Positions 6,031 through 63,751 of a DNA stretch of 64,000 nucleotides are shown piece by piece. Under the pieces are notes generated by a model that was not told the origin of the DNA, made no database searches, and saw nothing but the letters and a program-made list of their open reading frames with translations. The DNA lies in the IMG/VR virus record IMGVR_UViG_3300027714_000004, positions 62,001 to 126,000 of that record; one strand, written 5' to 3'. Position numbers and translations under genes: made by a program. Positions within the stretch are counted from its first letter, which is position 1; each line of letters starts with the position of its first letter. This stretch comes from a virus.

Positions 6031-6031
6031 G

Positions 6032-6060
6032 TTGACAAACGTTTCGATAAGATGTATAAT
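6032..6060 (+). promoter_or_regulatory. Promoter-leader cassette
   Basis: TTGACA 6032-6037, 17 bp, TATAAT 6055-6060, then AGCTACATAAACTGATAATG and GAGAGAGA before the ATG at 6097. Confidence 0.88.
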
Positions 6061-6096
6061 AGCTACATAAACTGATAATGAGAGAGAGATTTGACT

Positions 6097-6793: not shown

Positions 6794-6801
6794 ATTAATT
6801 C

Positions 6802-6820
6802 ACTTATTTTCATAATAAGT
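6802..6820 (+). promoter_or_regulatory. Palindrome abutting a -35 box (site 2)
   Basis: ACTTATT-TTCAT-AATAAGT, with 7-bp arms, ends one base before the TTGACA at 6822, the same phase as at 6012-6030. Confidence 0.65.
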
Positions 6821-6821
6821 C

Positions 6822-6850
6822 TTGACAAGTAATGAAAACAAGTGTATAAT
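6822..6850 (+). promoter_or_regulatory. Promoter-leader cassette
   Basis: TTGACA 6822-6827, 17 bp, TATAAT 6845-6850, then AGCTGTATAAATTAATC and AGAGAGA before the ATG at 6885. Confidence 0.86.
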
Positions 6851-6884
6851 AGCTGTATAAATTAATCAAAAGAGAGAATATATT

Positions 6885-12376: not shown

Positions 12377-12384
12377 ATGGGTGG

Positions 12385-12392
12385 TATAAATA
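12385..12392 (+). promoter_or_regulatory. T4-type late promoter
   Basis: TATAAATA immediately after the terminator and 20 bp upstream of the chosen start at 12413. Confidence 0.8.
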
Positions 12393-12412
12393 TAGATTTA
12401 ATGAGGTGTCTG

Positions 12413-46517: not shown

Positions 46518-46832
46518 ATGTCTAATTATGGAATGGAAATTATAAGTCCAGATAGTGACGGTAATGGTAACTCGATAGTATCGCGAGTTGTTTTCTCCGA
46601 TAGTATTAGAACCTCCAATATCCAACTACACGAGACAATATCCTTGGCCAAGAATACAAGTACATTTATCTCTTGTCTAGATGCTAACGATCCCTCTAAA
46701 ATAATAATCACCTTTGAACAGGCCCGTGGTTTTGTTATAAGTAACAAGACCCCTCTTGGGTTTACAGTAACTAATGAATACCAGTACATGAACACTCTTA
46801 CTGGTACAGTCATCGCAGTGAGAATTGGATAA
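46518..46832 (+). CDS. DUF6453-like small virion protein, 104 aa
   Basis: Starts MSNYGMEIISPDSDGNGN, similar to the MSYGLxIxNxxG start of the two proteins at 59407 and 59778 and to the N-terminus of the giant protein at 46832. Beta-rich, about 100 aa. Probably a fibre-associated head domain or tip. GGAG ribosome binding site. Confidence 0.65.
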   Translation: MSNYGMEIISPDSDGNGNSIVSRVVFSDSIRTSNIQLHETISLAKNTSTFISCLDANDPSKIIITFEQARGFVISNKTPLGFTVTNEYQYMNTLTGTVIAVRIG

Positions 46833-49800
46833 TGTCATACGGATTAAAAATTACGGGAAACGATGATGGCGGTAACTTCACGGTTGCCGACACTGATCTA
46901 GGCATGGTCAACTTAGTAGTTACCGATGTCGGTAGAGCATCGTCCTTCAATCTTGTAGGGGGTATTCAGCCGGGCGACTATATTTACGTGAGATATCCTT
47001 CTGCGCCTGGCGGTGGAGGGTATACTCCTATACAGATGGGAGAAGGTCTATCAGCGGTTCAGATAGATAGACCTTTAATCTATAATATAGATGCTGTCTT
47101 AGTTGCGGGTTCCCCTACCTCAGACATGACCATAAACTTTAAAGGTTCCGCATGGAAGTGGCTTAATTCTCCTAATTCATATCAATCTGATACACTCTAC
47201 ACATACAATGATTTCGTAGTAGATATGGATTACTTTGTAGTCCGTAAGGCTTCTACCATCAATGCACTGGGATTGGACACCTCAGAGGATTACGGTTTCC
47301 AACTACTCAACGTAGACAGTGTATCTGGTGCTAGTGAAATCGCACTTGATTCCAGAAGTTTTACCTCTGACAAAACCTTTTACATAGAAGGGTATCTGCC
47401 CCCAGACAATAACTTCGGCGAGATAAATGGCAATTCTACCACGTTATCCTATACAGATGGTTGTTACGTCAATCTAGAATGGTCTGCCAGATCAGCGGTT
47501 CCTTTCTTTCCGTCCTTCGGAGCAGCACCCCTTCTCGGACTTTCTATCACGGATACTATGGCATATAGTATTGACGGAGATACTACTATAGTAGGTGGTG
47601 GTGGAGAACCAGAATTACGAATCTGGTCTAGTTATAATGCAATATTTGCAGCTAAACTAGGAGCGGGTATATCTTCTTCCACACCACCCAATGAGTCAGG
47701 TGGTGGTACTGTAACTCCTCCACCAACTGAACCCAACGAAATCACAGGTACAATCGACTACGTATCTGGAAACACTGTGACCGAAGGTAACACAATATCC
47801 TTTAACGCAGTAACGTCTGTATCATCCAATTACCACACTCGCGTCTTTAGACTGTCTGGGTCGGCAGGGGATGCAGGAAAAGATTTCAATACCGTAACAT
47901 CTCCATTCACCGGAACCTCCCATACCGTGACGTTGAGCACATATGACACGAGCTCTGGTCAACAGACATTTAATAATATCTATAGTCAGGGTTATGTCGG
48001 AACTTACTCTAGAGACAGAGTATCTGCCTACACAAGAGAAGTAGCAGCTTCGTATAGTAGAACCTTCGTTGGCAACTTCATTGGTAACTATTCAGGTACT
48101 ACTTCTTACCAGACCGACTTCTCTAGTAACTATAATCAAACGGTTGATTACACAAGAACTATTTCGCGTACCGAATCATTCATCGGTAACTATTCACGTT
48201 CGAGATTAGCGGTATCCACACGAACTTCTATATACTCTAGAAATATATCGTATACCGGAAACTTCCTAGGGAACTATGCAGGAGCATACTCAAGAACTCG
48301 TACAAAAACTTCCTCCTACACCAGAGATTTTTCTAGGACGGACTCATATACGGGTAATTATGAAGCTTCGCGGGTGCTTTATGAAGGTGGTGATGAAGTT
48401 ACCTTCCCACTATTCTTCGTTTCATATTACTCTAGAGTCAGACCCTCTTCATTTGCGGGTACCTACACACGAAATAGAGCAGACAGTAATTCATACACAG
48501 GGTACTATAGTAGAACCAGTACCAGAACAGTACCTGCTTCATATCTAGGAACGTACAGTAGAAACAGAGTAAGTACATATGCTAGGTCTAGAGCAACCAG
48601 TGGTTCCCAAGTATTGACCTTCAATGGTACATACACTCGATACTTTTCTGGTGCTTACAGTCGGACAGGTTACTATTCAGGAGCATACACAGCATTTTAT
48701 ACCGGAAACTTTGGGCAGACAGCAGATTACTCTAGATTTCGTCAAGTATCCTTTACAGGAAACTATAGCAGGAACGTTACATCTACCAATACCTTCTCTC
48801 GTAGTTTCACTAATACTACCCCGTACTCGTCGGCGTATAGTCGTACGACCACGGGTACCATTACGGATCCAGCGTCCACGAGGAACGTTAATTACTCTAG
48901 GTCTTTCGTAGGGGACTATGCGAACACTGGTACCTTTATGGGTAACTTTGTAGGAAACTACCTTAGGTATTTTACAAGAAACGTAGGTTACGCTAGAACC
49001 ACCGTTGGATATCAGTATCTCCCAACTCCTAGAACCTACTGGTACGAGTATCCACATGCAGAACAGATTGACGAGCCAGGGGGCCCTCCCGCTATTCTCC
49101 TACGACATATCGTAGTTTATGTCGGTAACGTAATTGTTGCAACAGGAATATCTTCGAGCCTTAATCCCACAACATATCTTTTATCGGGTGGTGTATATTA
49201 CCATAAAGGTTCTCTTAATTATTCTTCAGCAGGTGATCAGACTTACTTTAGTATTGGTCAGAGTCTTGATGGTGGGCCACCGTCAGCGGGAACATCGTAT
49301 TACACTAGAACCGGATACTATGCAAGTTCTTACGCGGGTGCCTATGCAAGAACATTTGCTGGGACTGGTACCTTTTCAAGATCTCGTCTAATGGAATATT
49401 CAAGAGTCGTTCCATATACTTTGGTTCGTACTAGTACCTATACTGGGTATTACTCTAGAAGTTATACCTCAGGCGCAGTGAGAACTGCTTCATATACTGC
49501 GTACTATGCTGGCACAGCATCATATACTAGAAACCGTGCGGCTACCTACGGAGGAAACTACACGGGTGCTGCTGTAAGTTACATATATGATCCCGAATCT
49601 GGACAGTCAAGAGTTGTATCTCCATTCTCATCACGTCAACGTATTGCTTACTATTCGGGTACCTACACAAGAGGTCTTAGTTATAGCAGAAATAGACCAA
49701 TGTCCTATGCAGGAGCATACACCAGAACTAGCGCATACTCTGCAAGTTACGTAGGGAACTACAGCAGAACTTTATCGGATAGTTATTCGGGGACATATGC

Positions 49801-50878
49801 CAATACCTATATCGGTAACTATACTGGAGCATACTCTAGAACTATCACTCAAGGTACGACATTCACAGGTAACTATGCGGGTACAGGAACACAGAACTTC
49901 ACGGGTACATATTCTAGATGGACTACGAATAGCTTCACCCGAACCCGATTACATACTATTACCAGAACCAGTTCATACTCAAGAGGCCTTTCCTTCATAG
50001 GGGAGTATACCGGAATGTATACGCGGGATAGTGTGATAACTAGACCATCTACTCTGGACTACAATGGAATTGCAATATTCACAGAGAATTTTGCGGGAGA
50101 ATACACCAGAAATAGTGGTAGTGGATTTACGAAACTCTCTACGTATTCTAGAACAAATAGTTTTCTGGGTAATTATATCGGAAACTTTTCTAGAACAGAA
50201 ACTGGTACTCCAGAGTCTACTAGAAACAGAACCAGTTCATACACAAGGACTGGGGGAGCTAGTTACGAGAGAAATATAGTAGACAGTTATGTGGGTACAT
50301 ACATTGGTAATTACACGGGCGCATCAACTCGCACACCATCCAATACTTCTGAGATTGGTTGGCAGGGAGAGAGGTTCGTTATCGAATTGAGAAGAGGTTC
50401 GGACGCTACTTCTATAGCTGCGGCAAGAGGGACTATACCAGCATTGGATTCAAAGGAGTTTACTCTTATTGATAATGATACTGGTCTATTTGTAGCTATG
50501 TCTCCTCAAGTGTTGCACCATACCGCAACCCAACACGAACTTGTATTTGACTTCTTCACCGAAGGTACGTCAGTGGTTCCTGCTAGAATTTATAGAGGTT
50601 CCTCAATACTAGTTAACTCGTTCAACTTGGTATCTAATCAAAGAAATTCGGTGATGGTGAATGAAGTCCCACCGGAAGGTTCTAATTACATTTACACTCT
50701 GAAGGTGTTCGATGGTTCGAGTTGGGTATTGTCGTCATACTATCAGGTAACTAAAGTAACCGATACTGACTATACACCCCCAACAGATGGCGGTGGCGCC
50801 CCGACTCCGACCTATACTGCTCCCACTCCTGCTTATTATACGGGTGGTACACCCTCACCACCAAGCAACGAAAATTAA
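46832..50878 (+). CDS. Giant aromatic tetrapeptide-repeat fibre protein A, 1348 aa
   Basis: Residues 1 to about 300 form a DUF6453-like head (MSYGLKITGNDDGG...), a beta domain and a Gly/Pro/Thr-rich linker. From about residue 385 to about 1165 the chain is a repeat in which an aromatic or Arg recurs every fourth position, e.g. FVGN-FIGN-YSGT and YSRT-RTKT units. It is broken by a non-repetitive domain at about 730-820. The C-terminal 180 residues hold one or two globular domains and a Pro/Thr/Gly tail. Expected to be a long fibre or adhesin. The ribosome binding site is weak and the start overlaps the preceding stop. Confidence 0.7.
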   Translation: MSYGLKITGNDDGGNFTVADTDLGMVNLVVTDVGRASSFNLVGGIQPGDYIYVRYPSAPGGGGYTPIQMGEGLSAVQIDRPLIYNIDAVLVAGSPTSDMTINFKGSAWKWLNSPNSYQSDTLYTYNDFVVDMDYFVVRKASTINALGLDTSEDYGFQLLNVDSVSGASEIALDSRSFTSDKTFYIEGYLPPDNNFGEINGNSTTLSYTDGCYVNLEWSARSAVPFFPSFGAAPLLGLSITDTMAYSIDGDTTIVGGGGEPELRIWSSYNAIFAAKLGAGISSSTPPNESGGGTVTPPPTEPNEITGTIDYVSGNTVTEGNTISFNAVTSVSSNYHTRVFRLSGSAGDAGKDFNTVTSPFTGTSHTVTLSTYDTSSGQQTFNNIYSQGYVGTYSRDRVSAYTREVAASYSRTFVGNFIGNYSGTTSYQTDFSSNYNQTVDYTRTISRTESFIGNYSRSRLAVSTRTSIYSRNISYTGNFLGNYAGAYSRTRTKTSSYTRDFSRTDSYTGNYEASRVLYEGGDEVTFPLFFVSYYSRVRPSSFAGTYTRNRADSNSYTGYYSRTSTRTVPASYLGTYSRNRVSTYARSRATSGSQVLTFNGTYTRYFSGAYSRTGYYSGAYTAFYTGNFGQTADYSRFRQVSFTGNYSRNVTSTNTFSRSFTNTTPYSSAYSRTTTGTITDPASTRNVNYSRSFVGDYANTGTFMGNFVGNYLRYFTRNVGYARTTVGYQYLPTPRTYWYEYPHAEQIDEPGGPPAILLRHIVVYVGNVIVATGISSSLNPTTYLLSGGVYYHKGSLNYSSAGDQTYFSIGQSLDGGPPSAGTSYYTRTGYYASSYAGAYARTFAGTGTFSRSRLMEYSRVVPYTLVRTSTYTGYYSRSYTSGAVRTASYTAYYAGTASYTRNRAATYGGNYTGAAVSYIYDPESGQSRVVSPFSSRQRIAYYSGTYTRGLSYSRNRPMSYAGAYTRTSAYSASYVGNYSRTLSDSYSGTYANTYIGNYTGAYSRTITQGTTFTGNYAGTGTQNFTGTYSRWTTNSFTRTRLHTITRTSSYSRGLSFIGEYTGMYTRDSVITRPSTLDYNGIAIFTENFAGEYTRNSGSGFTKLSTYSRTNSFLGNYIGNFSRTETGTPESTRNRTSSYTRTGGASYERNIVDSYVGTYIGNYTGASTRTPSNTSEIGWQGERFVIELRRGSDATSIAAARGTIPALDSKEFTLIDNDTGLFVAMSPQVLHHTATQHELVFDFFTEGTSVVPARIYRGSSILVNSFNLVSNQRNSVMVNEVPPEGSNYIYTLKVFDGSSWVLSSYYQVTKVTDTDYTPPTDGGGAPTPTYTAPTPAYYTGGTPSPPSNEN
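47975..50340 (+). repeat. 12-bp-period coding repeat region (protein A)
   Basis: Encodes the tetrapeptide repeats: codons for Tyr/Phe (tat, tac, ttc, ttt) or Arg recur every 12 bases in the + frame, interrupted at about 49020-49300 and by shorter stretches. At the DNA level the units are diverged, so the repeat is old rather than recently expanded. Confidence 0.85.
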
Positions 50879-50903
50879 TTTGAAAATCTATTGTTAAAAC
50901 TGT

Positions 50904-50911
50904 TATAAATA
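50904..50911 (+). promoter_or_regulatory. T4-type late promoter
   Basis: TATAAATA 30 bp upstream of the ATG at 50941. Confidence 0.8.
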
Positions 50912-50940
50912 GTATAATGAAAAATGTAAGGTAACCCCTG

Positions 50941-51420
50941 ATGAACTTGAAACTTGTAGTATATGTAACAATCGATACTGGAAAGATATCTAGAATCGCA
51001 TTACCCAACCATAATATAGATGCCGAAGGTGTCTCTGAAGATGGAACTTTGCGTATTATCCATATACATGAAGGTAATGTACCTGAAGGATGTAATGATC
51101 TAAGATACTTCCTAGACTATCACTGGTACGACCAAGAGACCGAATCTTTTGAGTTTATCGGACTACCACCTAATCGTCATGCTGAATGGAGTTCTGCGGA
51201 CGGTTGGACTTGGGACGAAGATCTACTGTTGCAAGACATTCTCCTAGAAAGAACCAAATTCTTATTTGCCTCCGATTGGACTCAGGCATTAGACGTTCCC
51301 CTAACAGAATCCAAACTCCAAGAGTGGAGAGACTATAGACAGGCATTGAGAGATCTCTCGACTAATGTCGGAAGTGTGTCTTCAGTGTCAGAAGTTGTTT
51401 GGCCAACAGTACCGAATTAA
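50941..51420 (+). CDS. Phage tail-fibre assembly chaperone (APC/Tfa-like), 159 aa
   Basis: C-terminal pattern RTKFLFASDWTQALDVPLTESKLQEWRDYRQALRDL (parts ASDWTQALDVPL and WRDYRQALRDL) and a final WPTVP are the phage tail-assembly-chaperone signature. It should fold or trimerise the fibre encoded just upstream. Paralogue at 60537. Begins its own late unit, continuing into gp8. Confidence 0.83.
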   Translation: MNLKLVVYVTIDTGKISRIALPNHNIDAEGVSEDGTLRIIHIHEGNVPEGCNDLRYFLDYHWYDQETESFEFIGLPPNRHAEWSSADGWTWDEDLLLQDILLERTKFLFASDWTQALDVPLTESKLQEWRDYRQALRDLSTNVGSVSSVSEVVWPTVPN

Positions 51421-51436
51421 ATAATAGGAATATACA

Positions 51437-52765: not shown

Positions 52766-52780
52766 GGTTTAGGATTAATC

Positions 52781-55700
52781 ATGGCAGAATTTACAAATAA
52801 AACGTTCGAAGAAACATATCGCGATTTTTATAAGGCCGAAGACGGTTATCATAAGGTATTGTTTAACTCCGGACGTGCACTACAAGCACGTGAACTTATC
52901 GAGTCACAGACAATCATCCAAGAAGAGATTGCACGGTTCGGTCGTAACATATTCAAAGAAGGTGCTCTGGTAAATCCAGGCGGCGCCACCGTGAATAACC
53001 AACTAGAATATATTCGTCTAACGGCAGCTGCTGTTATCGATACGGACTTGGTGGGCAAAACGCTAACCAACGGAACTATCGAAATGAAAGTTCTAGAAGT
53101 TGTTGAAGCTGACCTCATTGATCCCGTTACTACTTTGTACGTACAGTACACAGACACATCTCTTATCGTCGATACTACTAAAGCACCTCGTGTATCTTCA
53201 CTAGACATCTTGCTTCGCGTTGATGCTCTGACCACCACGGTTCTTACTGTCATTGATGATAGCAGTGATCCTATTCCTGCATCTGGACTCGGAACTAAAG
53301 CATACTTCTCTGCGGGTGACTTCTTTGTTCAAGGACACTTTGTCTATATGGAAGGTGGTAGTTCTTTCATCGACAAGTATAGCAAATCTCCTACAACTGA
53401 TATTGGTTTCTTAATCGAACAGAATATCATCACTGAAGGTGAAGATGTTGACCTATACGACAATCAGGGTCAGGTTCCTAACCAGACTGCGCCTGGCGCA
53501 CATCGTTATCAGATCAAGTTGGTTCCTACTACTAGAGATCAAGTTCTGGTAGAAGAGAACTTTGTATTCATAGCACGTGTTGTTGACGGTGTCATTACTC
53601 GTGAAGTCAGTACATTCGACGGATACAACCGAATCAATGACCTTCTCGCCCAGCGCACAAAAGAAGAATCTGGTAACTACGTTGTCGATGAGTTCAAAGC
53701 AATCTTTGAAGAGAATGTTCTTGACGATACTCTACTCACCCTAGATGTGACCGAAGGTATCGCTTATGTTGATGGTTACAGACTAGAGATTGGTACGACT
53801 GATATTCCTGTTGATAAAGCAAGAGATCTTATTACCAAAACAAACGAACCAGTACCTGCCGCATATGGTAACTATGTTTATATTGACGAGGCTGCCTCTG
53901 AAGGTTTTGGTCGATTTGACGAGTTCGGTTATGTAAGACTCAAGACTTCTTTAAATAATACCATAGGTTATGCTAACGTACGTGGCGTACAACGAGATGC
54001 AGTTGGTACAAGAGTATATATCTTCAACATCCGTATGAATGACATTTTCGACGGTGGTACTGGTGACAAGATTGGTGTAGAGAGTTTCTCTAATGTTACT
54101 CAGTTTGATGATCCTTTCCCCGGCTATGCTGGTACTCCTCCAGTAACAGTCTTGGTAAATAGTATTATATACGAAGCATCAGATAATAGCTTGTTGTTCC
54201 CTTTACCTAGGACTAGTCCTTCGACAACCCCCTTCACTAGTAACTACACAGTTCAGCGATATACTAGACAGATTGCATCCGGTAGTGGTGAGATTAGTCT
54301 CTCAGGTGTTGAATCTACTGGATGGGTAATTTGTGAGACTGCTGGGCCAATCCTGGCTGTCTCTCCGAGCATATCGGGTACATATACCGGACTAACTCCT
54401 AACCTATCACACGATATTGCTTATTACGTAGAACTCAGTAATGTCCAATCACGTACTAAACAAATTACTACGATAGAGACGGTGACATCTCTTCCAAGTG
54501 TAGACTATCAAAAAAGACCTATATTCACTGGAGAGGTTGATGGTATCGCCCTACAATCTGTTAAGTTCCGAGACAGTGTTGCTACTGCTTGGGTAGATGC
54601 AGAAGACATCACTCACCAGTTCATCTTCGATGGTGGTCAACGTGATAACTTCTATGACCAAGTAGTTGTGTACCTTAAATCAGGATACTTACTCCCTACA
54701 GGAGCAAATCATGAGACACAGGCAATCTTCACTCACTATGATCATCAAGACGACGGAGTGTACTTTTCGTCAAGTTCATATGTAGATGATACATATGAAA
54801 CTATTCCAGACCATACTACTGCAACAGGTACAGTGATTTCTCTACGTGACGTATTGGATTTCCGTCCTACAAGAAAATTTACTTACACCGGAGAGTTTGA
54901 TGTAACCGCAGAACTTCCTCAGAACGCGTCTGCTATCACGATCAACACTATACAATATTATCTATCTCGTATTGACATCCTCGTTGCCAATGCAACTGAT
55001 AGTCGAGGAGAGATCGGATTTGGTGAGCTACAGGTTATTCGAGGGGAATCTAACATAGACCCACGTGAACCCGAAATACCAACGGGTTCTATGGCATTGT
55101 ACAAGTTCCGATTGAATCCATATACCTTTAATTCATCTGATCTCGTAAGCACTTATATTCCAAACAAGCGTTTCACGATGAAAGATATCGGTAAACTGGA
55201 ACGCCGCGTCGAAGACCTATACGAACTGACCACGTTGAGTCTACTAGAGTCTAACACTAACTCATTGACTGTATTGGATGCCAATGGTAATGCAAGAACC
55301 AAAGCTGGTTTCATCGCAGATAACTTTAGCACATTCACTTTTTCTGATATTGATAATCCGCAATACCGAGCATCTATAGATCCACAGGGTCTATTGAAAC
55401 CGTCATTCCGTGAAAACTCAGTTCGACTGGCGTACAGTACCGACAATGTTAATGCTGTTGAGAAACATGGTGACCTAGTAACCCTACCATATTCGGATGC
55501 TCCTCTGGTATCACAGTTGCTTGCGACCGATACTATGAATGTAAATCCATTTGCGGTTCTTACACAAACTGGACACATGGATCTTTCTCCATCTTCGGAT
55601 GAGTGGGTAGAGACACGTAACCTACCAAATGTTATGCAAACTACGGTACGTCGATTCGAGACTCCACGTACACGTCCTGCTTTAAGGAATAATAGAAATA

Positions 55701-58093
55701 GTAACAACTTCACAAACGATGGTCTGTTTACTACGATATCCAGAGACATTTCGTTCAGAGAGACAAACCTCAGTATCCAAGACTTCATTGGCGAACAGAT
55801 ATTGGACGTTGAGATTATCCCGTTCATGAGATCTCGTGTAGTTAACTTTGCGGCCAAAGGACTACGTCCAAACACTAAGATGTTCGCATTCTTAGGTAAT
55901 AAGGACATGAGTTCATGGGTAAGACAAGAAACCTCTTCATCTAGATTCTCGGATAACCCCCAAGAGTTCGGTAGTCAGTATGCGAACGCAACTGAATATC
56001 CTGCTGTATTTGGTGGCCCAACTCTTCTAGTGACAGATGCCAACGGTGAATTATCAGGTAGTTTCTTCGTACCTAATACAACCGCCATTAACTTCCGAAC
56101 TGGTAAGCAAGAGTTTAAACTCCTTGACATTAGTGTTAATGACAATGATGAATCAACATCGTTGACTCGTGCAACCTATACCTCTACAGGTTCAATTGAG
56201 GGTGTACAGCGAACTGTACGTTCCACACGACTTGTTGATCTCCGTGCTGGTAGATTAGATCCTCTTGCACAGACATTCTTTGTCGACCAAATAGAGAACC
56301 CTAACGGACTGTTTATAACTAAGGCACGTGTCTTTGTAGATACTAAAGATGACACTATCCCTTTACAGGTACAGATTCGTTCGGTAGAGAACGGTATACC
56401 GACCACACGTATCATTCCAGGCTCAGTTAAGTTCATCGATCCTAGTTCAATATCAATCCCAACTAACAGTGTTAGTGGTGATGGAACAAGCGTTGCGACT
56501 ACAATTGAAGATGTTCAGGCATCTCCGACAATAGTTGAATTTGACGAACCAATTTACTTGACAAGTGGCGAAGAATATGCGATAATACTACTCGCTGAGT
56601 CGGAGCAGTATAACGTATACATTGCTGAGACTTATCAGAATGTATTCGGTTCACGTGAAGATAGAATAACAAAACAACCTACTCTAGGTTCTCTATTCTT
56701 ATCACAGAACGGATTCACTTGGACACCAGACCAAACTAAAGACTTAATGTTCGAATTAGATCGTGCAGAGTTTGTTGCTTCAGGTGATCTAATTCTTGAC
56801 AATTCTCCGTTACCGAAAGTTACTCTAGGAAGTGATCCACTCGAAACTACTTCTGGTAGTCCAACAGTCAGAGTATACCACGAAGGTCATGGTCTAAGTC
56901 ACAATGATAGTGTTTCTATCGCAGACGTAGCCAATGCAATCGGTGGACTAGCTTCTTCGGTATTCGAAGGTACCTTTACCGTATCTACCCCATCATGGGA
57001 TGGTTATAACATCACTGTTGCATCTAACGCAACTTCATCAGCAAAAGGTGGTGGTGATGATGTAACACTTTCTCAACAAGTAGTGTATGATGATTTCGTA
57101 CCACAGATACAGACTATTGTACCTAACTCCACAAGCATTACTGCGAAGTTGTTACAACCAACCGTCTCGTCTTATGGCAGTACTCGATCAACTACGCGGT
57201 TTTTATATGGTTTACCTGCTGGATGGTCATTCGCAAAGTCAGTCTTCTTGAACAACTACAACTCTAATGTATCACCGAGTGTTGTTGCATCGTCAGAGAA
57301 CGCTGGTGGTTCAGAGACTATGAAGTTTAACTTGAGTATGTCTACAGACGATACCAAGGTCTCTCCGGTAGTTGATCTTCAACGAGTATCTGTATTAGCT
57401 CTAGAGAATGTCATTGACACTATCGATGCTGCACAACATATTACAGTACCTGTTATCATAGATGAATCTTCGGCGGGGGTGAAAGTTATATTTTCCGCTA
57501 ATCGACCATCAACTGCCAACTTCGAAGTGTATATGAAATCCGCAGTAAACGAAGATGCATTGGTCTCAACAGACGACGATGGTGTATTTACAACAGAATG
57601 GGTACAAGCTAGTATAGACAAAGAATTACCTTCGGACGATAACCCAGAAACTTTCCGTGACTACGAATATACACTTGACACAAACCAGTTCACTGCGTTC
57701 CAAGTTAAGATTGTAATGCACTCTACTAACAGTTCTAAGTCTCCGGTCATAAGAGACTTACGTGCTATTGCATTGATAACAGGTAGTGGTGGAACTATTG
57801 GAGATCCTGCTCCACTCCAGAGTTTAAGTCTAGCTCCGCAGAATACCGCATTAGGAACTACTGTAGCTGATCCTGCTATTGATCCTGCTATTGATCCAGT
57901 AGTTGATCCAGTAGTCGATCCAGTAGTCGATCCAGTAGTCGATCCAGTAGTCGATCCAGTAGTCGATCCAGTCGATACTGGAACAACCCCTGACGGCGGT
58001 GGAGACTCTGGTGATGATGGAGAGGGGGAAACTCCTATTGAGGATGAAGGACTACCCACAGACCCCGTTAGCGGAGACCTAAACCCAGATTAA
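52781..58093 (+). CDS. DUF4815-type giant baseplate/fibre protein, 1770 aa
   Basis: N-terminal FEETYRDFYKAEDGYHKVLFNSGRALQARELIESQTIIQEEIARFG (parts YKAEDGYHKVLF, GRALQARELIE) marks the DUF4815 type, common in marine T4-like phages. The rest is beta-rich with several fibre-like domains, including ATSSAKGG and NRTRPS-type loops. It ends in tandem DPVV repeats and an acidic tail (DPVSGDLNPD). Thought to be a proximal fibre or the largest baseplate component. The gene is 16 bp downstream of gp8. Confidence 0.78.
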   Translation: MAEFTNKTFEETYRDFYKAEDGYHKVLFNSGRALQARELIESQTIIQEEIARFGRNIFKEGALVNPGGATVNNQLEYIRLTAAAVIDTDLVGKTLTNGTIEMKVLEVVEADLIDPVTTLYVQYTDTSLIVDTTKAPRVSSLDILLRVDALTTTVLTVIDDSSDPIPASGLGTKAYFSAGDFFVQGHFVYMEGGSSFIDKYSKSPTTDIGFLIEQNIITEGEDVDLYDNQGQVPNQTAPGAHRYQIKLVPTTRDQVLVEENFVFIARVVDGVITREVSTFDGYNRINDLLAQRTKEESGNYVVDEFKAIFEENVLDDTLLTLDVTEGIAYVDGYRLEIGTTDIPVDKARDLITKTNEPVPAAYGNYVYIDEAASEGFGRFDEFGYVRLKTSLNNTIGYANVRGVQRDAVGTRVYIFNIRMNDIFDGGTGDKIGVESFSNVTQFDDPFPGYAGTPPVTVLVNSIIYEASDNSLLFPLPRTSPSTTPFTSNYTVQRYTRQIASGSGEISLSGVESTGWVICETAGPILAVSPSISGTYTGLTPNLSHDIAYYVELSNVQSRTKQITTIETVTSLPSVDYQKRPIFTGEVDGIALQSVKFRDSVATAWVDAEDITHQFIFDGGQRDNFYDQVVVYLKSGYLLPTGANHETQAIFTHYDHQDDGVYFSSSSYVDDTYETIPDHTTATGTVISLRDVLDFRPTRKFTYTGEFDVTAELPQNASAITINTIQYYLSRIDILVANATDSRGEIGFGELQVIRGESNIDPREPEIPTGSMALYKFRLNPYTFNSSDLVSTYIPNKRFTMKDIGKLERRVEDLYELTTLSLLESNTNSLTVLDANGNARTKAGFIADNFSTFTFSDIDNPQYRASIDPQGLLKPSFRENSVRLAYSTDNVNAVEKHGDLVTLPYSDAPLVSQLLATDTMNVNPFAVLTQTGHMDLSPSSDEWVETRNLPNVMQTTVRRFETPRTRPALRNNRNSNNFTNDGLFTTISRDISFRETNLSIQDFIGEQILDVEIIPFMRSRVVNFAAKGLRPNTKMFAFLGNKDMSSWVRQETSSSRFSDNPQEFGSQYANATEYPAVFGGPTLLVTDANGELSGSFFVPNTTAINFRTGKQEFKLLDISVNDNDESTSLTRATYTSTGSIEGVQRTVRSTRLVDLRAGRLDPLAQTFFVDQIENPNGLFITKARVFVDTKDDTIPLQVQIRSVENGIPTTRIIPGSVKFIDPSSISIPTNSVSGDGTSVATTIEDVQASPTIVEFDEPIYLTSGEEYAIILLAESEQYNVYIAETYQNVFGSREDRITKQPTLGSLFLSQNGFTWTPDQTKDLMFELDRAEFVASGDLILDNSPLPKVTLGSDPLETTSGSPTVRVYHEGHGLSHNDSVSIADVANAIGGLASSVFEGTFTVSTPSWDGYNITVASNATSSAKGGGDDVTLSQQVVYDDFVPQIQTIVPNSTSITAKLLQPTVSSYGSTRSTTRFLYGLPAGWSFAKSVFLNNYNSNVSPSVVASSENAGGSETMKFNLSMSTDDTKVSPVVDLQRVSVLALENVIDTIDAAQHITVPVIIDESSAGVKVIFSANRPSTANFEVYMKSAVNEDALVSTDDDGVFTTEWVQASIDKELPSDDNPETFRDYEYTLDTNQFTAFQVKIVMHSTNSSKSPVIRDLRAIALITGSGGTIGDPAPLQSLSLAPQNTALGTTVADPAIDPAIDPVVDPVVDPVVDPVVDPVVDPVVDPVDTGTTPDGGGDSGDDGEGETPIEDEGLPTDPVSGDLNPD
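57869..57964 (+). repeat. 12-bp tandem repeat (DPVV/DPAI), eight units
   Basis: Two GATCCTGCTATT units, one GATCCAGTAGTT, then five identical GATCCAGTAGTC (57905-57964). They encode DPAI x2 then DPVV x6 at the end of the giant protein. Exact identity implies recent expansion or slippage. Confidence 0.93.
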
Positions 58094-58096
58094 ACT

Positions 58097-58336
58097 ATGA
58101 ATAATCATCAAAGAGTAGAAGGTCATAACAACTTAGTACGGGATAGGCGAACTGGTGTTGTCCTAAATAACAATAAGACTGAAATCGAAAACGCAAGAAA
58201 ACTAAGTATAATACAACAAGAAAAAGAGGATCATATCAACACTCTTACTAATGAGATAGACTCACTAAGAACAGATATGGATCAAATAAAAGAATTGCTT
58301 TTTCGTTTAGTAAAGGATAAAGAAGATGGCAGATAA
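58097..58336 (+). CDS. Small coiled-coil protein, 79 aa
   Basis: Starts MNNHQRVEGHNNLVRD and ends in a coiled coil (INTLTNEIDSLRTDMDQIKELLF). Short proteins of this kind (VEGHxNLVRDxxTxxV) occur at fibre loci in marine T4-like phages, probably as structural or adaptor parts. Overlaps the next gene by 11 bp. Confidence 0.7.
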   Translation: MNNHQRVEGHNNLVRDRRTGVVLNNNKTEIENARKLSIIQQEKEDHINTLTNEIDSLRTDMDQIKELLFRLVKDKEDGR

Positions 58337-59405: not shown

Positions 59406-59406
59406 T

Positions 59407-59781
59407 ATGAGTTATGGATTAGAAATACGCAATTCGTCAGGGACTGTTATAGTCAACGAATTTAGCAATCTAGGGTCTCTTGTGGCACATGGTGTCATTT
59501 CAGCAGACAATGCTAAATACGATTCCGCGGCTGCCGCTAATCCTAATTGGGCATTAAATCCTATCTGGTTTGCTCCTGCTTGGTTCGCTTATGGTGAACG
59601 TGCTGCTATAACTATAAGTGTTCCTGATTATATAAATGATGCTCAGTATCATGCAATCGTCTCAGGCCCGTCATCTTTATTTGTTTCGGGAGCAGAAGTT
59701 ATAAGTACGTCCACTGGTAGTATAACCGTTAAAAGAAATGATAAATTTGATGCATATTTTTATATTGTGAGAAAGGGATGA
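59407..59781 (+). CDS. DUF6453-like small virion protein, 124 aa
   Basis: Begins MSYGLEIRNSSGTVIVNEF, the DUF6453-type start. Beta-rich, with FAPAWFAYGERAAITISV. Paralogue of the next gene and of 46518 and the N-terminus of 46832. Probably a fibre tip or head domain. Overlaps the next gene (ATGA). Confidence 0.68.
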   Translation: MSYGLEIRNSSGTVIVNEFSNLGSLVAHGVISADNAKYDSAAAANPNWALNPIWFAPAWFAYGERAAITISVPDYINDAQYHAIVSGPSSLFVSGAEVISTSTGSITVKRNDKFDAYFYIVRKG

Positions 59782-60500
59782 GTTACGGACTACAGATAAA
59801 AAACGGATCCAATAATATTATTATTGACGAAGCCTTTAAGAATTTTCAGATTGCTGCGATTGGTACATCAGCAGCCGGTACAGCTTTGCCAATCACAGGC
59901 AACCTTATGACGGAGGGTGGTTTGGTCTTTGCTAAACCAAGTGGAGTTAACACAAGCGATTCCGCTGGATGGCATATCGGTATAGAGATGAACTTTTACT
60001 CTGCTCACACAGGACAGTTCGATGTGAACCTGACCAGTACGTATTCTGGTGGTGTTGATAGATCAACCTCTGCAATAACATCCCCCAATCTTGGTAAGCA
60101 AGCTCCTAATATAGATTGGATATACATAAAACCTTCGGCAACCCCAACAAGTACGGAATATGGATTGGAAGTATATGCCGCAGATGGCACTATGTCTTTC
60201 TCATCTGAAGTTAGTGGTATGTTCAATATAATTTCAACTGCGGTAAGTAACCCCAGTACTAAGTCCGGTAACCACTTTTTCACTCCTTGGTACGCAGGAT
60301 CTGGACGAGACGTGTTTGATTGTTACGTATGTATCGGGAACTTCCTACACTTCCATATCTCCTCGACGACTTGGGGATGGGCGCATACTGCGAAGTGGCA
60401 GTCATCCGGTAATAAGTTGACATTGATTCAACCAGACTGGGTGTATCCTAATAACACAGTCCCTGCAATGTATCTCATGGGACAACTGTCGGGTAACTAA
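59778..60500 (+). CDS. DUF6453-like virion protein, 240 aa
   Basis: Starts MSYGLQIKNGSNNIIIDEAF and contains a second similar block in its middle (TEYGLEVYAADGTMSFSSE), so it is a tandem of two related domains. Beta-rich, no enzymatic motif. Part of the fibre module; the repeated block suggests duplication of the 59407-type domain. Confidence 0.68.
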   Translation: MSYGLQIKNGSNNIIIDEAFKNFQIAAIGTSAAGTALPITGNLMTEGGLVFAKPSGVNTSDSAGWHIGIEMNFYSAHTGQFDVNLTSTYSGGVDRSTSAITSPNLGKQAPNIDWIYIKPSATPTSTEYGLEVYAADGTMSFSSEVSGMFNIISTAVSNPSTKSGNHFFTPWYAGSGRDVFDCYVCIGNFLHFHISSTTWGWAHTAKWQSSGNKLTLIQPDWVYPNNTVPAMYLMGQLSGN

Positions 60501-60536
60501 TTCGACAAATTAATTTAGTAAAGGAACGTTTTAAAA

Positions 60537-60992
60537 ATGAGTAAAATATTAGCATACACGCATAAAGATACTGGAGAAGTTACTTCGGTAGTTACAATGT
60601 CTCTAGACGGTGGTTGTCCGGAAGATGGTGAAAGTGTAGGTGATTCTATTGTAAGAGACATTACCGACATTGCTCAAGATGATTGGGCTTCGTACTCTGA
60701 AACTAAGTACTGGGATAATGGTTGGGTTACCCGTGGAGAGAAACCTTCGTCAAATCATATATGGCAAGACGGTGAATGGGTATTCAATGTAGTACACTTC
60801 TCTTTTCAAGTTCGTATAAGAAGACTAGAACTTCTAAATCAAAGTGACTGGACTCAAATGCCAGACAGTCCTCTATCCGAAGAGATGAAGACTGCATGGG
60901 GAGAGTATCGACAAGAACTCCGTGATATGACCATACTTCTTTCGGATATAGTCTCCGAAGAAGAACTTGATTGGCCTGCAACCCCAGAATAA
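60537..60992 (+). CDS. Phage tail-fibre assembly chaperone (APC/Tfa-like), 151 aa
   Basis: C-terminal RLELLNQSDWTQMPDSPLSEEMKTAWGEYRQELRDM (parts LLNQSDWTQMPDSPLS, WGEYRQELRDM) and final WPATPE match 50941-51420 and the tail-assembly-chaperone family. It precedes a terminator and the second giant repeat protein. Confidence 0.83.
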   Translation: MSKILAYTHKDTGEVTSVVTMSLDGGCPEDGESVGDSIVRDITDIAQDDWASYSETKYWDNGWVTRGEKPSSNHIWQDGEWVFNVVHFSFQVRIRRLELLNQSDWTQMPDSPLSEEMKTAWGEYRQELRDMTILLSDIVSEEELDWPATPE

Positions 60993-61020
60993 AAAACTAT
61001 ATTGTAATAACTACTAATAA

Positions 61021-61054
61021 ATGTGCATAGTCTTAGATCATGCACATTTTTTTT
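61021..61054 (+). terminator. Rho-independent terminator
   Basis: ATGTGCAT (61021-61028) pairs with ATGCACAT (61040-61047), followed by seven T. Confidence 0.88.
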
Positions 61055-61055
61055 G

Positions 61056-61063
61056 TATAAATA
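61056..61063 (+). promoter_or_regulatory. T4-type late promoter
   Basis: TATAAATA directly after the terminator, starting a separate late unit for the giant repeat protein at 61112. Confidence 0.82.
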
Positions 61064-61111
61064 CCATTAAGAAATACTACATTAACTGATAATTAATAGA
61101 GAGAGTCATCC

Positions 61112-63751
61112 GTGTCCGCATCCAGTATACCCCTAAAAATTAAAAATAGCGCAGGTGACCTACAGGAATTCAGCCCCGAAGAAGAAATGTTTCTTGCGGT
61201 AAAATTGGGAGAGTCTTTATCAGAGTCTTCTGCTGGTGATATCGGAGACATTAGTCTAACGGGTGATGTTAATATAGGATCGTTTGTAGACACGTACTAC
61301 AACGAAGTTACGGGTACTCACCCAGCATCAAACATTACAGGAACTACCGTTACTACTACATTAAAACAGGTAGGTGGTTCTGCGTCAGAGACTGGATCAG
61401 ATTTCATAAGACCTATAGGTTATTATCAAAGCAGTTCAAATGCTGGATTCTACGATATGGTAGATCTAGATTTGAATAATTTAACAACTCGTGCACTGAG
61501 AACTGTTGAGACATTAGGTCTTCAGGGTACATTCGAATTATCATCAACTACGCCAGGCACTGATTGGGTAAAACATGTAGATAACGTGTTTACAGATACC
61601 ATCGGTGACGGTACCTCGGTAGTATACCATATTTGGAAACGTGTGACACTAGCAACTCCACCAGCGGGTCTAGCCACCGTACGACCAATGGCAACAACTT
61701 ATGACGGATCTACCTTTGATGGGTTTAAAGAAATGTCAGACGATCAGATCAAGGCTACCCTTGGTCAACGTGCTAAAACTCTTCGAGCAACAGTAGGATC
61801 TATTGGTTCTTATCAGTTGCGTTCATCCGCTCAAGGAGCTCCCACTTCAGCAGGTACTTGGGATGCACGTGGTTCTGCTACTAATACTCAACGAACCCTT
61901 GTTGACGCCGACTATTCTCGTACTCGTAATTCTGCATATACTCGCACTAGAGTTTCTGCATATTCACGTGATCGACAGTCTACATATACCCTAGACCGCA
62001 CAGAATCATTCTCAAGGAATTTTACTGGTGACTTCGCTGGTACATATACTAGAGACTTCGCTGGTACATATACTAGCGATTTTACTGGAGTATATTCTAG
62101 AACTCGTCCTTCAACATATAGTCGTAGTAGACTAGAGGCATTCACTGGTTATTTTGCGGGTACTTATAATCGTGCACGAGTATCTACCTATACTAGTGAT
62201 AGGATAGAAGGGTTCTCTTCAGCATATTCACGTGCACGAGTATCTACCTATACACGTAGTCGTATTACCGACTTCGCTGGAAACTTCGTTGCAGGATATT
62301 CTAGAGGATTTGCTTCAGATTATTCGCGAACCTTTATCGGTGCATATTCATCTTCTTACTTTGGTGATTTTGTAGGAAACTATGCTCGTACTTCTACTCT
62401 AGTTTCCACACGCACTCGGTACTCTACATACACACGAAATAGTATAACTAACACTCCCGTCTCTTATATGGGTAATTTCGTAGGGTATTATACTGGAGAT
62501 TTCGCAAGTTCATACTCAAGAACTACATCGGGCACATATGCTCGGACGTTAGCATACTCTCGTACACTGTATTATACTGTTAGTTTCGTAGGAAACTTTT
62601 CTCGCGCAGCTGCGGGGTATTACACCGGAAACTATGCTCGTACACGAGATATGTCATATTGGGCATATTACGCTCGTAATATTGCTTACACAGGGTATTA
62701 CTCTCGCAGCGCCAGTCAAGGTGCATCATATTTCAGAAACATGGTGTCTACTCGTTTCCGATATGGTACTACCAGAAACGCTCAGGCATTTCCCAGCGAC
62801 ACCTCTCTCGACGGTAATTTAATTATACCTTGGTATTTTGCGGGGGACTTTGCAACTGCATTTGAATATGTTGCATACTACCCAGGCGGCACCTACACAC
62901 GTTCAAGACTTGTCTCTAACACTTATGCCAGAGTCATCCCCCTCTACTACGTGGGAAATTATAGTAGGACTGTAGGCGTTAACTACGTAGGTAACTATGC
63001 GAGAACGCGTGTAGCAAGCAGTCAAGGTACTGGTTACTATGCGACCACCTCAAACTACTCTTCTTCATACACGGGATATTACTCTAGAAACCAGACTCTT
63101 ACTTATGCTGGTGCTTATGCACGAGCTCGTGCGAGTGTTGTACAAGATACATTTGTAGGTGACTACGCAAGAACATTTGCAGGTGCCTTCTCTAGTCAAT
63201 TTGTTGGCGAATATACCACAACATCTACAAGAACTCGATTAGCTTCGTTTGTCAGAAATAGAGTGCAGGCGTATACGAACACACGATCTTCGACATATTC
63301 TCGTGATCGTGTTGCTAATTTTGCAGGAGAGTTTACTGGTAACTACACAACAACATTCTCTGGAGACTATTCTCGAACCTTTGCTGGTAACTTTGTAGGT
63401 AACTATACCACAACCTTTATTGGTGACTTTGCAGGAGCATATGCTAATACCTTTACAGGAGAATTTGTTGGAGACTTCACTACTAATTATGTAGGCAACT
63501 ATAGTCGTGTACGTGTATCTGCGTACGCTCGACTACGTACCTCAACCTATACTGGCCCTTACACAAGTGACCGCGCATCGACGTACATCGGAAATTTCAC
63601 TTCGGACTACACGCGTGAATTTGTTGGAAACTATTCGAGAGATTTTGCTGGTCAATATTCACGTGCTTACCTCGGAAACTATACTGGTACAACTATTAGT
63701 GATGTGATCTATACCCCAGAAACATATACCTTATACGTAAGGATTGCATAA
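61112..63751 (+). CDS. Giant aromatic tetrapeptide-repeat fibre protein B, 879 aa
   Basis: GTG start at 61112 with AGAGAGAG ribosome binding site. Residues 1 to about 265 are a globular fibre-like N-terminal domain (SASSIPLKIKNSAGDL..., ending NTQRTLVDAD). Residues about 268-862 repeat an aromatic or Arg every fourth position, e.g. FVGD-FTTN-YVGN-YSRV and YSRT-RPST units. It ends in a short strand (YTPETYTLYVRIA). Same repeat class as 46832-50878 but with few interruptions. Likely a fibre or adhesin; I know of no characterised homologue. Confidence 0.7.
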   Translation: MSASSIPLKIKNSAGDLQEFSPEEEMFLAVKLGESLSESSAGDIGDISLTGDVNIGSFVDTYYNEVTGTHPASNITGTTVTTTLKQVGGSASETGSDFIRPIGYYQSSSNAGFYDMVDLDLNNLTTRALRTVETLGLQGTFELSSTTPGTDWVKHVDNVFTDTIGDGTSVVYHIWKRVTLATPPAGLATVRPMATTYDGSTFDGFKEMSDDQIKATLGQRAKTLRATVGSIGSYQLRSSAQGAPTSAGTWDARGSATNTQRTLVDADYSRTRNSAYTRTRVSAYSRDRQSTYTLDRTESFSRNFTGDFAGTYTRDFAGTYTSDFTGVYSRTRPSTYSRSRLEAFTGYFAGTYNRARVSTYTSDRIEGFSSAYSRARVSTYTRSRITDFAGNFVAGYSRGFASDYSRTFIGAYSSSYFGDFVGNYARTSTLVSTRTRYSTYTRNSITNTPVSYMGNFVGYYTGDFASSYSRTTSGTYARTLAYSRTLYYTVSFVGNFSRAAAGYYTGNYARTRDMSYWAYYARNIAYTGYYSRSASQGASYFRNMVSTRFRYGTTRNAQAFPSDTSLDGNLIIPWYFAGDFATAFEYVAYYPGGTYTRSRLVSNTYARVIPLYYVGNYSRTVGVNYVGNYARTRVASSQGTGYYATTSNYSSSYTGYYSRNQTLTYAGAYARARASVVQDTFVGDYARTFAGAFSSQFVGEYTTTSTRTRLASFVRNRVQAYTNTRSSTYSRDRVANFAGEFTGNYTTTFSGDYSRTFAGNFVGNYTTTFIGDFAGAYANTFTGEFVGDFTTNYVGNYSRVRVSAYARLRTSTYTGPYTSDRASTYIGNFTSDYTREFVGNYSRDFAGQYSRAYLGNYTGTTISDVIYTPETYTLYVRIA
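61913..63694 (+). repeat. 12-bp-period coding repeat region (protein B)
   Basis: Runs of tetrad units such as FAGN-FVGN-YTTT-FIGD-FAGA-YANT are seen across the region; nearly every fourth codon is Tyr, Phe or Arg. Two 24-bp blocks encoding DFAGTYTR and similar are close copies near 62030-62080. Confidence 0.88.

Follow-up and report, generated by a model that had tools for sequence, protein, structure and literature searches.

Parallel trimers account for most of the well-known tail fibres, and what controls the register of repetitive beta-structures has long been asked. Intramolecular antiparallel coiled coils, alpha-helical and built on heptads, are found in SMC/Rad50 proteins, and long hairpins build the beta-barrel tubes of pore-forming proteins. 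In phages, the receptor-binding tip of T4 gp37 has a six-stranded trimeric needle with out-and-back antiparallel strands and the receptor-binding head at the distal turn, and the needle contains His motifs that bind iron. One structural account gives this needle as approximately 150 x 25 Å, treats T4 gp11 as a trimer, and describes a 'flower' motif of T4 gp10, gp11 and gp12 in which a helix is followed by beta-strands with big inter-strand insertions (PMC3004832).

Here we analysed a window of 64,000 nucleotides of a viral record (IMG/VR IMGVR_UViG_3300027714_000004, positions 62,001 to 126,000) encoding two giant repeat proteins, A and B. Both open reading frames are present where the initial annotation had placed them (Table 1). 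It had also assigned them to a fibrous part of the tail, and the neighbourhood agrees: neighbours of A and B match T4 gp9/10 N-terminal, Phage_Tail_Tip and, twice, Phage_tail_APC in Pfam. Baseplate genes lie upstream in the block, including 44308..46500, the product of which matches PF07880 T4_gp9_10_N (E 1.2e-5; 25.9 bits, cut-off 25) and phrog_677, 'baseplate wedge tail fiber protein connector' (E 4.7e-8), and the same tail/baseplate block contains a PF09327 match at 58326. A and B both lie in a tail/baseplate block with a fibre assembly chaperone adjoining. The N-terminus of A resembles by eye the proteins at 59407 and 59778; its residues 1-343 had no match among phage records.

Table 1. 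Positions in the window of proteins A and B, their regions and adjoining genes.
Feature	Position	Strand	Remarks
ORF of protein A	46832-50878	+	1348 aa
A residues 1-387, N-terminal region	46832..47992	+	MSYGLKI..., by eye unlike the B N-domain
A residues 388-630, proposed outgoing strand	47993..48721	+	stem score
A residues 631-931, inner tetrads and tip domain (~718-829 non-tetrad)	48722..49624	+	
A residues 932-1167, proposed returning strand	49625..50332	+	pairs with 388-630
A residues 1168-1348, C-terminal domain	50333..50878	+	no Pfam match
ORF of protein B	61112-63751	+	879 aa, GTG start
B residues 1-251, proposed anchoring N-domain	61112..61864	+	tandem helix + beta units, the last running into the hairpin
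B residues 252-539, proposed outgoing hairpin strand of tetrads	61865..62728	+	stem pairing
B residues 540-587, tip without tetrads, putative receptor-binding head	62729..62872	+	stem centre
B residues 588-876, proposed returning tetrad strand into C-terminal strand TYTLYVRIA	62873..63739	+	stem pairing
Baseplate/fibre connector upstream of A	44308..46500	+	PF07880 and phrog_677
Tail-fibre assembly chaperone paralogue adjoining A	50941..51420	+	PF16778 Phage_tail_APC, E 1.8e-15
Tail-fibre assembly chaperone paralogue directly upstream of B	60537..60992	+	PF16778 Phage_tail_APC, E 2e-14

The expectation that neither protein would be a recognised one stood up to searches of Pfam, PHROGs and NCBIfam, which returned 0 families for A and 0 for B (catalogued hexapeptide, pentapeptide and other repeats included), and to a PDB sequence search made for B only, which gave no chain at E <=10. 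No such protein was found in the open-licence PMC literature as judged from titles and abstract openings.

Autocorrelation of Tyr/Phe over lags 1-24, compared with 500 residue shuffles, gave peaks in B at lags 4, 8, 12, 16, 20 and 24 (z 10.8, 13.2, 11.0, 11.4, 10.7 and 10.1), with z between -1.5 and -4.9 at every other lag. The lag-4 peak suggested as a check is also present in A (z 8.1), followed by lag 8 (z 4.9); further peaks of A at lags 14, 18 and 22 (z 5.2, 4.9 and 3.8; lag 10, z 2.0) indicate repeated phase jumps of +2, and parsing A gave 17 jumps, 16 of +2 and one of +1. The strict period of 4 originally claimed therefore holds for B but not for A, where the rule preserved is 'even' spacing, like that of beta-strands, rather than strict 4. 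Residue identity in B is strongest at lag 8 and weaker at lag 4. In both proteins the repeat has the form [Y/F/R]-x-[G/R/S]-x, with 126 parsed tetrads in B and 141 in A. In tallies from 13 B-type proteins, including the window's B, position 1 is Y (49%), F (24%) or R (20%), in a parse that itself favours Y/F/R there, and position 3 is G (40%), R (34%), S (11%) or T (6%); position 4 is N (32%), T (26%) or D (15%). TRF found a single short 24-nt array within gene B and none within gene A, and DNA inverted repeats reaching 16 bases are absent from gene B; the repeat is not a simple DNA array.

The repeat had been read as one uniform fibre region. Instead, each repeat region consists of a tip without repeats and a tract on either side of it; the two tracts are near-equal in length and match each other in ANTIPARALLEL order. 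B contains 288 antiparallel pairs (252-539 with 588-876) and one 1-residue bulge; across 11 proteins the lengths of tract 1 and tract 2 correlate with r=0.989. When registers were scanned, 11/11 single-tip B-type proteins had their maximum of aromatic:Arg pairs within an offset of 0 to 2 from the end-anchored mirror register. Each of the 11 was compared with 20 tetrad-shuffled versions scanned over 161 registers, and its count exceeded the highest found in any of them (z 5.0-13.2). Since the two tracts run antiparallel around the tip, aromatic and Arg residues appear as cross-strand partners. The aromatic and Arg ladders imagined earlier were thus right in bringing the two together, but would be replaced by the partners (Y:R, F:S/T, R:G) of an out-and-back hairpin.

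Pair counts at the register i+j=constant bear this out statistically. In the 11 B-type proteins, Tyr:Arg pairs number 893 against 203 expected, Arg:Arg 0 against 103 and aromatic:aromatic 22 against 212, compared with 486/197, 147/98 and 170/210 (observed/expected) in shuffles whose register was re-optimised. Like residues also pair in B-type proteins (N:N 176 against 41 expected, V:V 95 against 22). The tetrad code derived from 1275 tetrad pairs has FxGx:RxSx (343/84), YxRx:YxRx (286/125) and YxGx:RxAx (72/13) above expectation, with RxSx:RxSx (0/30) and YxRx:RxSx (0/122) absent. B-type proteins are related to one another, as are the short members, so these counts are not independent. Outside the training set Arg:Arg pairs are not avoided throughout: paralogue L037 has 4 (6.4 expected), the second L038 stem 2 (6 expected) and L040 2 (0 expected).

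Homologues carry a second signature of pairing. When tract 1 and tract 2 were aligned independently in 39 homologue pairs, stem partners mapped exactly onto stem partners in 14458/17714 columns (82%), and in 13079/16307 columns already displaced by indels. Of 127 tract-1 indels that span >=4 residues and lie within the outer 70% of their tract, 43 are matched by an identical one at the mirror position in tract 2, against 3 at the parallel position and 11.5 at random positions. Among double substitutions, the own partner scored above a swapped one in just 757/1266.

With the code trained on B-type proteins, the stem of A scored 65.8 (40 tetrad shuffles: mean 20.1, max 24.9). It has 228 pairs, comprising Y:R 27 (6 expected), R:R 1 (2) and aromatic:aromatic 1 (7); its strands carry indels relative to each other, and an inner part (87 and 102 residues) lies outside the resolved stem. 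A was one of nine held-out proteins taken from tetrad-rich ORFs lacking the N-domain motif, the others being four A-type proteins, two B paralogues and two L126 proteins, and stem z was >=18 in 9/9 relative to 20 tetrad shuffles each. Left out of this run were the A-type frames of L019 (1 difference from L020) and L021 (23 differences), paralogue L030, fragment L031, window-A pieces L005-L007, the L135 partial frame and the short members; the short members were covered instead by a pairing-matrix test on 45 loci, mostly other ones.

The N-domain of B is 47-77% identical to 15 aligned relatives; it has no Pfam match, and the window's own domain has none in PHROGs. An HMM of its second anchor unit matched the spliced last unit in 23/23 sequences (E 5.5e-10 to 0.01; only 2.9e-5 to 0.01 in B-type sequences; reversed controls E >=0.09). 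Among 36 short relatives the lengths of the two arms are closely correlated (r=0.995), with a median difference of 3 residues, and 35/36 have arms equal to within 8 residues. The turn motif used here had been tightened, setting aside 13/49, after the result of a first finder, dropped as too loose, which gave no arm correlation (r=-0.27, 43/49). For one short member, L072, AlphaFold2 (mean pLDDT 87.5) predicted the base of the hairpin: strands 236-256 and 284-312 form a lengthened version of the preceding unit's hairpin 144-154/159-169, and the stretch equivalent to the C-terminus of B is part of the second predicted strand (E284-312). pLDDT is <=56 from ~251 to 290, so the confident part comprises the anchor unit and roughly the first tetrad per arm. 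For full B (13 sequences) AlphaFold2 gave no structure for the tracts (mean pLDDT 30.7; ~20 over most of the tracts, with few short strands).

In 35/36 homologue pairs (9 proteins, the window's own tip left out) the tip is the least conserved region. Identity in these pairs is.73 for the N-domain,.65/.68 and.52/.50 for the outer and inner parts and.25 for the tip, declining toward the tip along both strands, which are under purifying selection (dN/dS 0.10-0.26, 5 homologue pairs). The initial annotation had the fibre binding host surface glycans; any receptor binding would more probably be the work of the variable tip. A tip module shared by A, B and neighbours was considered and rejected, as a three-seed HMM recovered just two L002 copies, again in L024; L024 is the same contig as L002, and the third seed was itself missed. 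A hairpin interrupting a Calx-beta-like domain in A was also dropped, phmmer of a neighbour protein against the A flanks, apart and joined, being unsupportive.

We consider it highly probable that A and B are tail-fibre chains that each emerge from an anchoring domain as one beta-strand of great length, form a distal head and go back antiparallel to the anchor, the two strands being zipped by the tetrad code. Within one face, each position-1 residue would lie opposite position 3 of the partner tetrad, placing Tyr with Arg or Gly, Phe with Ser/Thr/Gly, and Arg with Tyr or Gly, and almost never Arg with Arg or aromatic with aromatic; the other face would pair like with like (Val:Val, Asn:Asn/Asp, Ala:Ala/Thr). 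In B, residue i would sit near ~1127-i, for example 350 near 777. The mixed tetrads plausibly set the register across hundreds of residues, since a plain YTG hairpin would be able to slip. Small helix + beta units in a row would form the B anchor, and the hairpin loop of the last unit would have overgrown into the fibre, which makes the C-terminus that unit's closing strand. At ~0.33 nm per residue we infer a stem of up to ~95 nm, probably with three chains per fibre and the small/polar face inside. The neighbouring APC chaperone may assist folding, and the exchangeable head at the tip would bind the host.

The best surviving alternative, itself unlikely, keeps the hairpins but assembles them other than as a trimeric needle: as a two-stranded ribbon on its own, as a dimer, or as a multi-chain beta-barrel tube of greater width. 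A Foldseek search of the L072 model against PDB and BFVD found no match at E <=0.001, and its rows include many long-barrel-hairpin proteins, every one at E >=0.79 and not significant. Phage fibres of such a kind are usually trimers. The best VIA row is also a trimer, T4 gp11 (1el6_A, Z 2.4, 44 residues, rmsd 3.4; other rows Z 2.3 and 2.1, values that can be chance): L072 residues 126-169 + 211-314 align to T4 gp11 (1el6) and to T4 (5iv5) and Klebsiella phage KP1 (9f4b) baseplate chains, over 42-44 residues, the 5iv5 and 9f4b chains being of similar length.

It is improbable that the topology is correct but each arm is a solenoid or compact coil, the two coils lying antiparallel side by side. 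Equal arms and mirror indels require antiparallel packing only; a single-register residue code with 636 ungapped stem pairs in L011 and 597 in L017, however, suggests direct strand contact. In 76 homologue pairs (identity >=70%, tip included) indels are mostly even (867/1072), and 388 of these even ones are not multiples of 4, which fits no single coil unit. Still less probable, and strongly disfavoured by tract lengths, mirror indels and the antiparallel code, is the uniform parallel fibre of the initial annotation, a period-4 solenoid or ladder without fold-back. The clean period 4 of B speaks for it, as does a parallel self-match that equals or exceeds the antiparallel one in many Arg-poor members: only 28/45 reach z above 3 over shuffles, the parallel control is above the antiparallel stem in 28/45, and the pairing matrix fails to separate the two in the 45 tested. 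The parallel control is nonetheless far under the antiparallel score for A, B and L015, and under it in 7/9 held-out proteins, being above it in both L126 proteins. A disordered or elastic Tyr/Phe/Arg/Gly-rich linker of the sticker-spacer type accords with the low-complexity composition and the low pLDDT of the B tracts, but is the least credible reading, as a disordered chain needs no exact spacing, even indels, one-to-one code or compensating indels, and the strands are under purifying selection.

Returning to the zipped hairpin, we lean towards regarding these proteins as a new fibrous class, giant intramolecular beta-stems with their register written by a base-pair-like tetrad code (FxGx/RxSx, YxRx/YxRx, YxGx/RxAx). 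If so, complementarity would set length, partner and the position of one-sided domains, with insertions matched in both strands, and phages would adjust fibre length by paired tetrad changes and exchange heads as cassettes. Such a stem would differ from parallel trimers in growing by matched tetrads, holding both ends at the anchor and displaying a replaceable head. Very long beta pairing would gain a residue code that can be tested directly, and fibre design a possible scaffold. A family widespread in environmental phages but lacking annotation would be given an identity; mirror covariation could partly fold proteins left blank by structure prediction.

The family is widespread in IMG/VR. In bacterial/archaeal genomes 1/64 candidate stretches passed, a Paenibacillus 12-nt microsatellite read as (YTGF)n and an artefact; an intergenic match in Enterococcus phage Riverwalk and matches in Escherichia phages BabyEgg and BEBK14 (E 1 and 8) were also dropped. 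The one named phage found is Phage C48C1 (OQ984149, Kyanoviridae), whose WJE88074.1, a 'hypothetical protein' of 3347 aa, is a B homologue with 42% identity across 98% of B. Its stem (358-1296:1370-2407) has 893 pairs, with R:R 0 against 16 expected, and a gene annotated 'tail assembly chaperone' occupies the same place as 60537..60992 in the window. It differs in being far longer than B, with several non-repeat domains inserted and a second stem.

Among described structures the gp37 needle is the nearest known design; in sequence searches, profiles A1 and A4 gave best E 0.57 and 0.67, neither one gp37. At ~150 x 25 Å it is far shorter than the 288-pair stem of B or the 893-pair stem of Phage C48C1. 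Out-and-back antiparallel pairing of the gp37 type is found in the B family by sequence statistics only; a non-tetrad tip, putatively the receptor-binding head, stands at the turn. The iron-binding His motifs are absent: the His residues of B are at 70, 155 and 173 only, with none in the stem (252-539, 588-876). The anchor may resemble the 'flower' motif of T4 gp10/gp11/gp12, without a sequence match to those proteins, in being a helix + beta-strands with a big inter-strand insertion. With SMC/Rad50 no kinship is proposed, and alpha-helical heptads contrast with a beta-type tetrad code; the topology is alike, in that a chain would run out for hundreds of residues, form a distal head and return in register.

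Both of the giant proteins to which the initial annotation ascribed an aromatic repeat, A and B, are encoded in the window. The claimed period of four is real in each, but the phase in A often jumps. Within B, Tyr/Phe recurs with z above 10 at lags 4, 8, 12, 16, 20 and 24 and is depleted at all other lags to 23; the recurrence at lag 4 in A has a z of 8.1. The jumps, frequent in A and in homologues, are mostly of +2 residues, so that 'even' is a stronger rule than four, as in a β-strand, where successive side chains point to opposite faces. A simple DNA array is not the source of the repeat, and DNA inverted repeats are absent from gene B. Arrays of another kind occur in two related ORFs: at the C-terminus of a 1770-aa protein of the window, 12-nt units in tandem encode (DPVV)n/(DPAI)n, and near the end of the related ORF in locus L002 lies a (PEPE)-rich array. 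A 12-nt microsatellite of Paenibacillus translates as (YTGF)n, indicating that simple DNA repeats easily mimic the tetrad repeat in searches.

Neither A nor B matched Pfam, PHROGs or NCBIfam, and a PDB sequence search with B found nothing. Among 50,697 phage records there was one credible relative, a 3347-aa 'hypothetical protein' of Phage C48C1 (Kyanoviridae). From IMG/VR, 25 loci were found with the N-terminal anchor of B (the N-domain) and 48 with a 16-row alignment of it; an alignment of ten short relatives matched 238 of 271 candidate stretches, and 80 were kept. Long members with a complete ORF span 850 to 3347 aa. The short members, of approximately 310-530 aa, combine a related N-domain with a brief YTGxYTGx tract and end in a C-terminus of the same type. 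The Phage C48C1 fibre gene carries an almost exact direct duplication of ~75 aa (KTRHRSYLYYST...SGQY), either recent or an assembly artefact.

Coordinates of A, B and features discussed here (L-numbers, loci or contigs with relatives of A or B unless noted; others, window)
Feature	Location	Details
A	46832-50878 (+)	1348 aa; strands 388-630 and 932-1167; three bulges; stem assigned outside the inner part
B	61112-63751 (+)	879 aa; N-domain 1-251, outgoing strand 252-539, tip 540-587, returning strand 588-876
A-type gene	L019-L022, L026, L027	directly before a chaperone-sized gap, then B
B paralogue (MSNNKTLPLKLKDSDGNLQQ...)	L030:5713-8949, L032:5593-8949, L037:5773-8949	end ~50 bases upstream of B
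Variant tract (YLGDFQSTQDRD)	L040:9001-12606	
Adjacent Arg-poor tetrad proteins	L126:2071-3753 and 3757-7515	561 and 1253 codons, stop to stop
Phage C48C1 fibre gene	L001:12001-22044	WJE88074.1
Small proteins, MSYGL(E/Q)I...	59407-59781 and 59778-60500	
Nol-like carbamoyltransferase	12377-13870	phrog_1601, E 2.6e-69
1770-aa protein	52781-58093	
12-nt tandem array	57868-57972	
(YTGF)n microsatellite, Paenibacillus	L137:5001-5156	

The tetrads lie in two tracts around a non-tetrad centre, and indels between aligned pairs of B-type proteins mirror one another about it (12, 16 and 30 in tract 1 against 30, 16 and 12 in tract 2 for L011/L018). Tract lengths are nearly equal (258/248 in B, 339/334 in A, 614/634 in L011, 470/461 in L015; r=0.989 over 11 B-type proteins), and together these features suggested that the tracts pair antiparallel. 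When reversed tract 2 was slid along tract 1 and aromatic:Arg contacts were counted, the peak fell at the end-anchored register (offset 0 to 2) in all 11 B-type proteins; in A, the twelfth protein scanned, internal indels prevent one register from holding throughout. Tract 2 was then shuffled by tetrads 20 times per protein, each shuffle being scored at its best among 161 registers; in none of the 11 proteins did a shuffle equal the real count (z 5.0-13.2). Each tract was also aligned alone for 39 homologue pairs whose tracts are both at least 60% identical. Of 17714 columns, 82% carried stem partners exactly onto stem partners, as did 80% of the 16307 that indels had already shifted. Both residues of a stem pair were substituted in 1266 cases against 668 expected, with the own partner beating a swapped one in only 757 of the 1266. 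Within the outer 70% of its length, tract 1 has 127 indels of at least 4 residues; 43 of them had an identical indel at the mirror place, compared with 3 at the parallel place and 11.5 at random places.

Counting 5600 residue pairs in this register over 11 B-type proteins revealed a pairing code. Tyr:Arg pairs were observed 893 times against 203 expected (486/197 in re-optimised shuffles), while Arg:Arg pairs were never observed (103 expected; shuffles 147/98) and aromatic:aromatic pairs occurred 22 times against 212 (shuffles 170/210). At the level of tetrads (observed/expected), FxGx:RxSx (343/84), YxRx:YxRx (286/125), YxGx:RxAx (72/13) and FxRx:YxSx (25/1) are enriched, and RxSx:RxSx (0/30) and YxRx:RxSx (0/122) are avoided. 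On the other face like pairs with like (V:V 95/22, N:N 176/41).

The matrix learnt on these 11 proteins was then applied to untrained ones. The antiparallel stem of A scored 65.8, whereas its shuffles averaged 20.1 ± 1.6 (n=40, maximum 24.9) and its parallel control reached 20.6. All nine untrained proteins, A included, exceeded 20 shuffles (z at least 18), and antiparallel beat parallel in seven, the exceptions being both Arg-poor L126 proteins, where the scores were about equal. The larger of these has YNQ/FTG-type tetrads, and the pair perhaps follow another pairing code. B itself scored 106 (shuffles 19, parallel control 42) with a matrix lacking B and its nearest relative, L009. Of the three second B-type paralogues, those of L032 and L037 were scored and each gave a stem, that of L037 with 4 Arg:Arg pairs against 6.4 expected. 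L040 has a different repeat behind a related N-domain and a weak stem by the B matrix (score 40, 2 Arg:Arg pairs). The matrix performed weakly on 45 relatives, most of them short and Arg-poor: z exceeded 3 in 28, and the parallel control outscored the antiparallel stem in 28. Short relatives were tested without the code, by measuring the arms either side of a local turn motif. A first motif proved too loose, with many false turns and arm lengths that did not correlate (r=-0.27), and was dropped; the motif tightened after this value was seen, from local sequence only, has a single occurrence in 36 of 49 relatives. The arms of these 36 are 20 to 124 residues long, and the median difference between the two is 3 residues, with 35 of the 36 pairs within 8 (r=0.995).

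Among 13 proteins folded with the matrix, the longest main stems have 893 pairs (Phage C48C1) and 901 (L036). The returning strands of L031, L036, L037 and L041 carry inserted stretches of 179-227 residues, three of them with a second of 43-65, and the register resumes past each. L001, L036, L038 and L039 have a second stem, in no case crossing the first.

At the anchor, sequence comparison suggests that the hairpin splits the last N-domain unit. With an HMM built on the unit before it, the spliced last unit was recognised in all 23 sequences tested (10 short ones and the 13 of 16 B-type ones with a complete ORF; E from 5.5e-10 to 0.01, against 0.09 or worse for reversed sequences), mostly via the N-terminal part of the unit, with the C-terminal strand weak in several. 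An AlphaFold2 model of the short relative L072 (314 aa, 35 sequences, pLDDT 87.5) places strands at 236-256 and 284-312, a lengthened counterpart of the hairpin 144-154/159-169; pLDDT is 56 or less from ~251 to 290, so the model backs the hairpin base only. Among 181 PDB neighbours re-examined, three chains, T4 gp11 and two like-sized baseplate chains, gave Z 2.1-2.4, and the modelled likeness is a lead at most. Both strands become less conserved as they near the tip, which ranked lowest in conservation among six regions in 35 of 36 pairs. Tips of close relatives show dN of 0.31-0.95 with dS saturated in 2 of 5 pairs, implying that they have been exchanged or are too diverged to align.

Two small proteins share their beginning with A by eye, the one at 59778-60500 matching phrog_4062 (function unknown, E 3.4e-6); they are perhaps further tail-tip parts. 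A Nol-like carbamoyltransferase lies distant from the tail block.

We propose that the chain would emerge from the β-hairpin loop of the anchor, extend to a distal head and come back. One face would zip the strands by setting Tyr/Phe across from Arg, Gly, Ser or Thr, and the opposite face by like with like. Mixed tetrads would assign each stretch a preferred partner, allowing a stem of hundreds of residues to find one register. Three chains probably form a trimer with the small/polar face turned inward, the adjacent APC chaperone (PF16778) probably aids folding and the tip may bind the receptor. A β-strand rises 0.33 nm per residue, at which the stem of B would measure up to ~95 nm and the longest ~300 nm.

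By analogy, the nearest known design to this putative hairpin is T4 gp37, of which iron-binding histidines are a defining detail. The two would work alike, but these histidines are absent from the stem of B and no sequence kinship with gp37 was found, and we therefore do not file these proteins as gp37 members. Published accounts describe gp37 as a collar, a six-stranded antiparallel needle and a distal head (PMC9659904, PMC7291167), the needle being ~150 × 25 Å (PMC3004832). In searches of open-licence papers we found no description of a protein like A or B, nor did we find a library entry. We rate the out-and-back antiparallel phage needle as known and its tetrad-coded giant variant as new, and there is a fair chance that this predicted β-stem deserves a class of its own.
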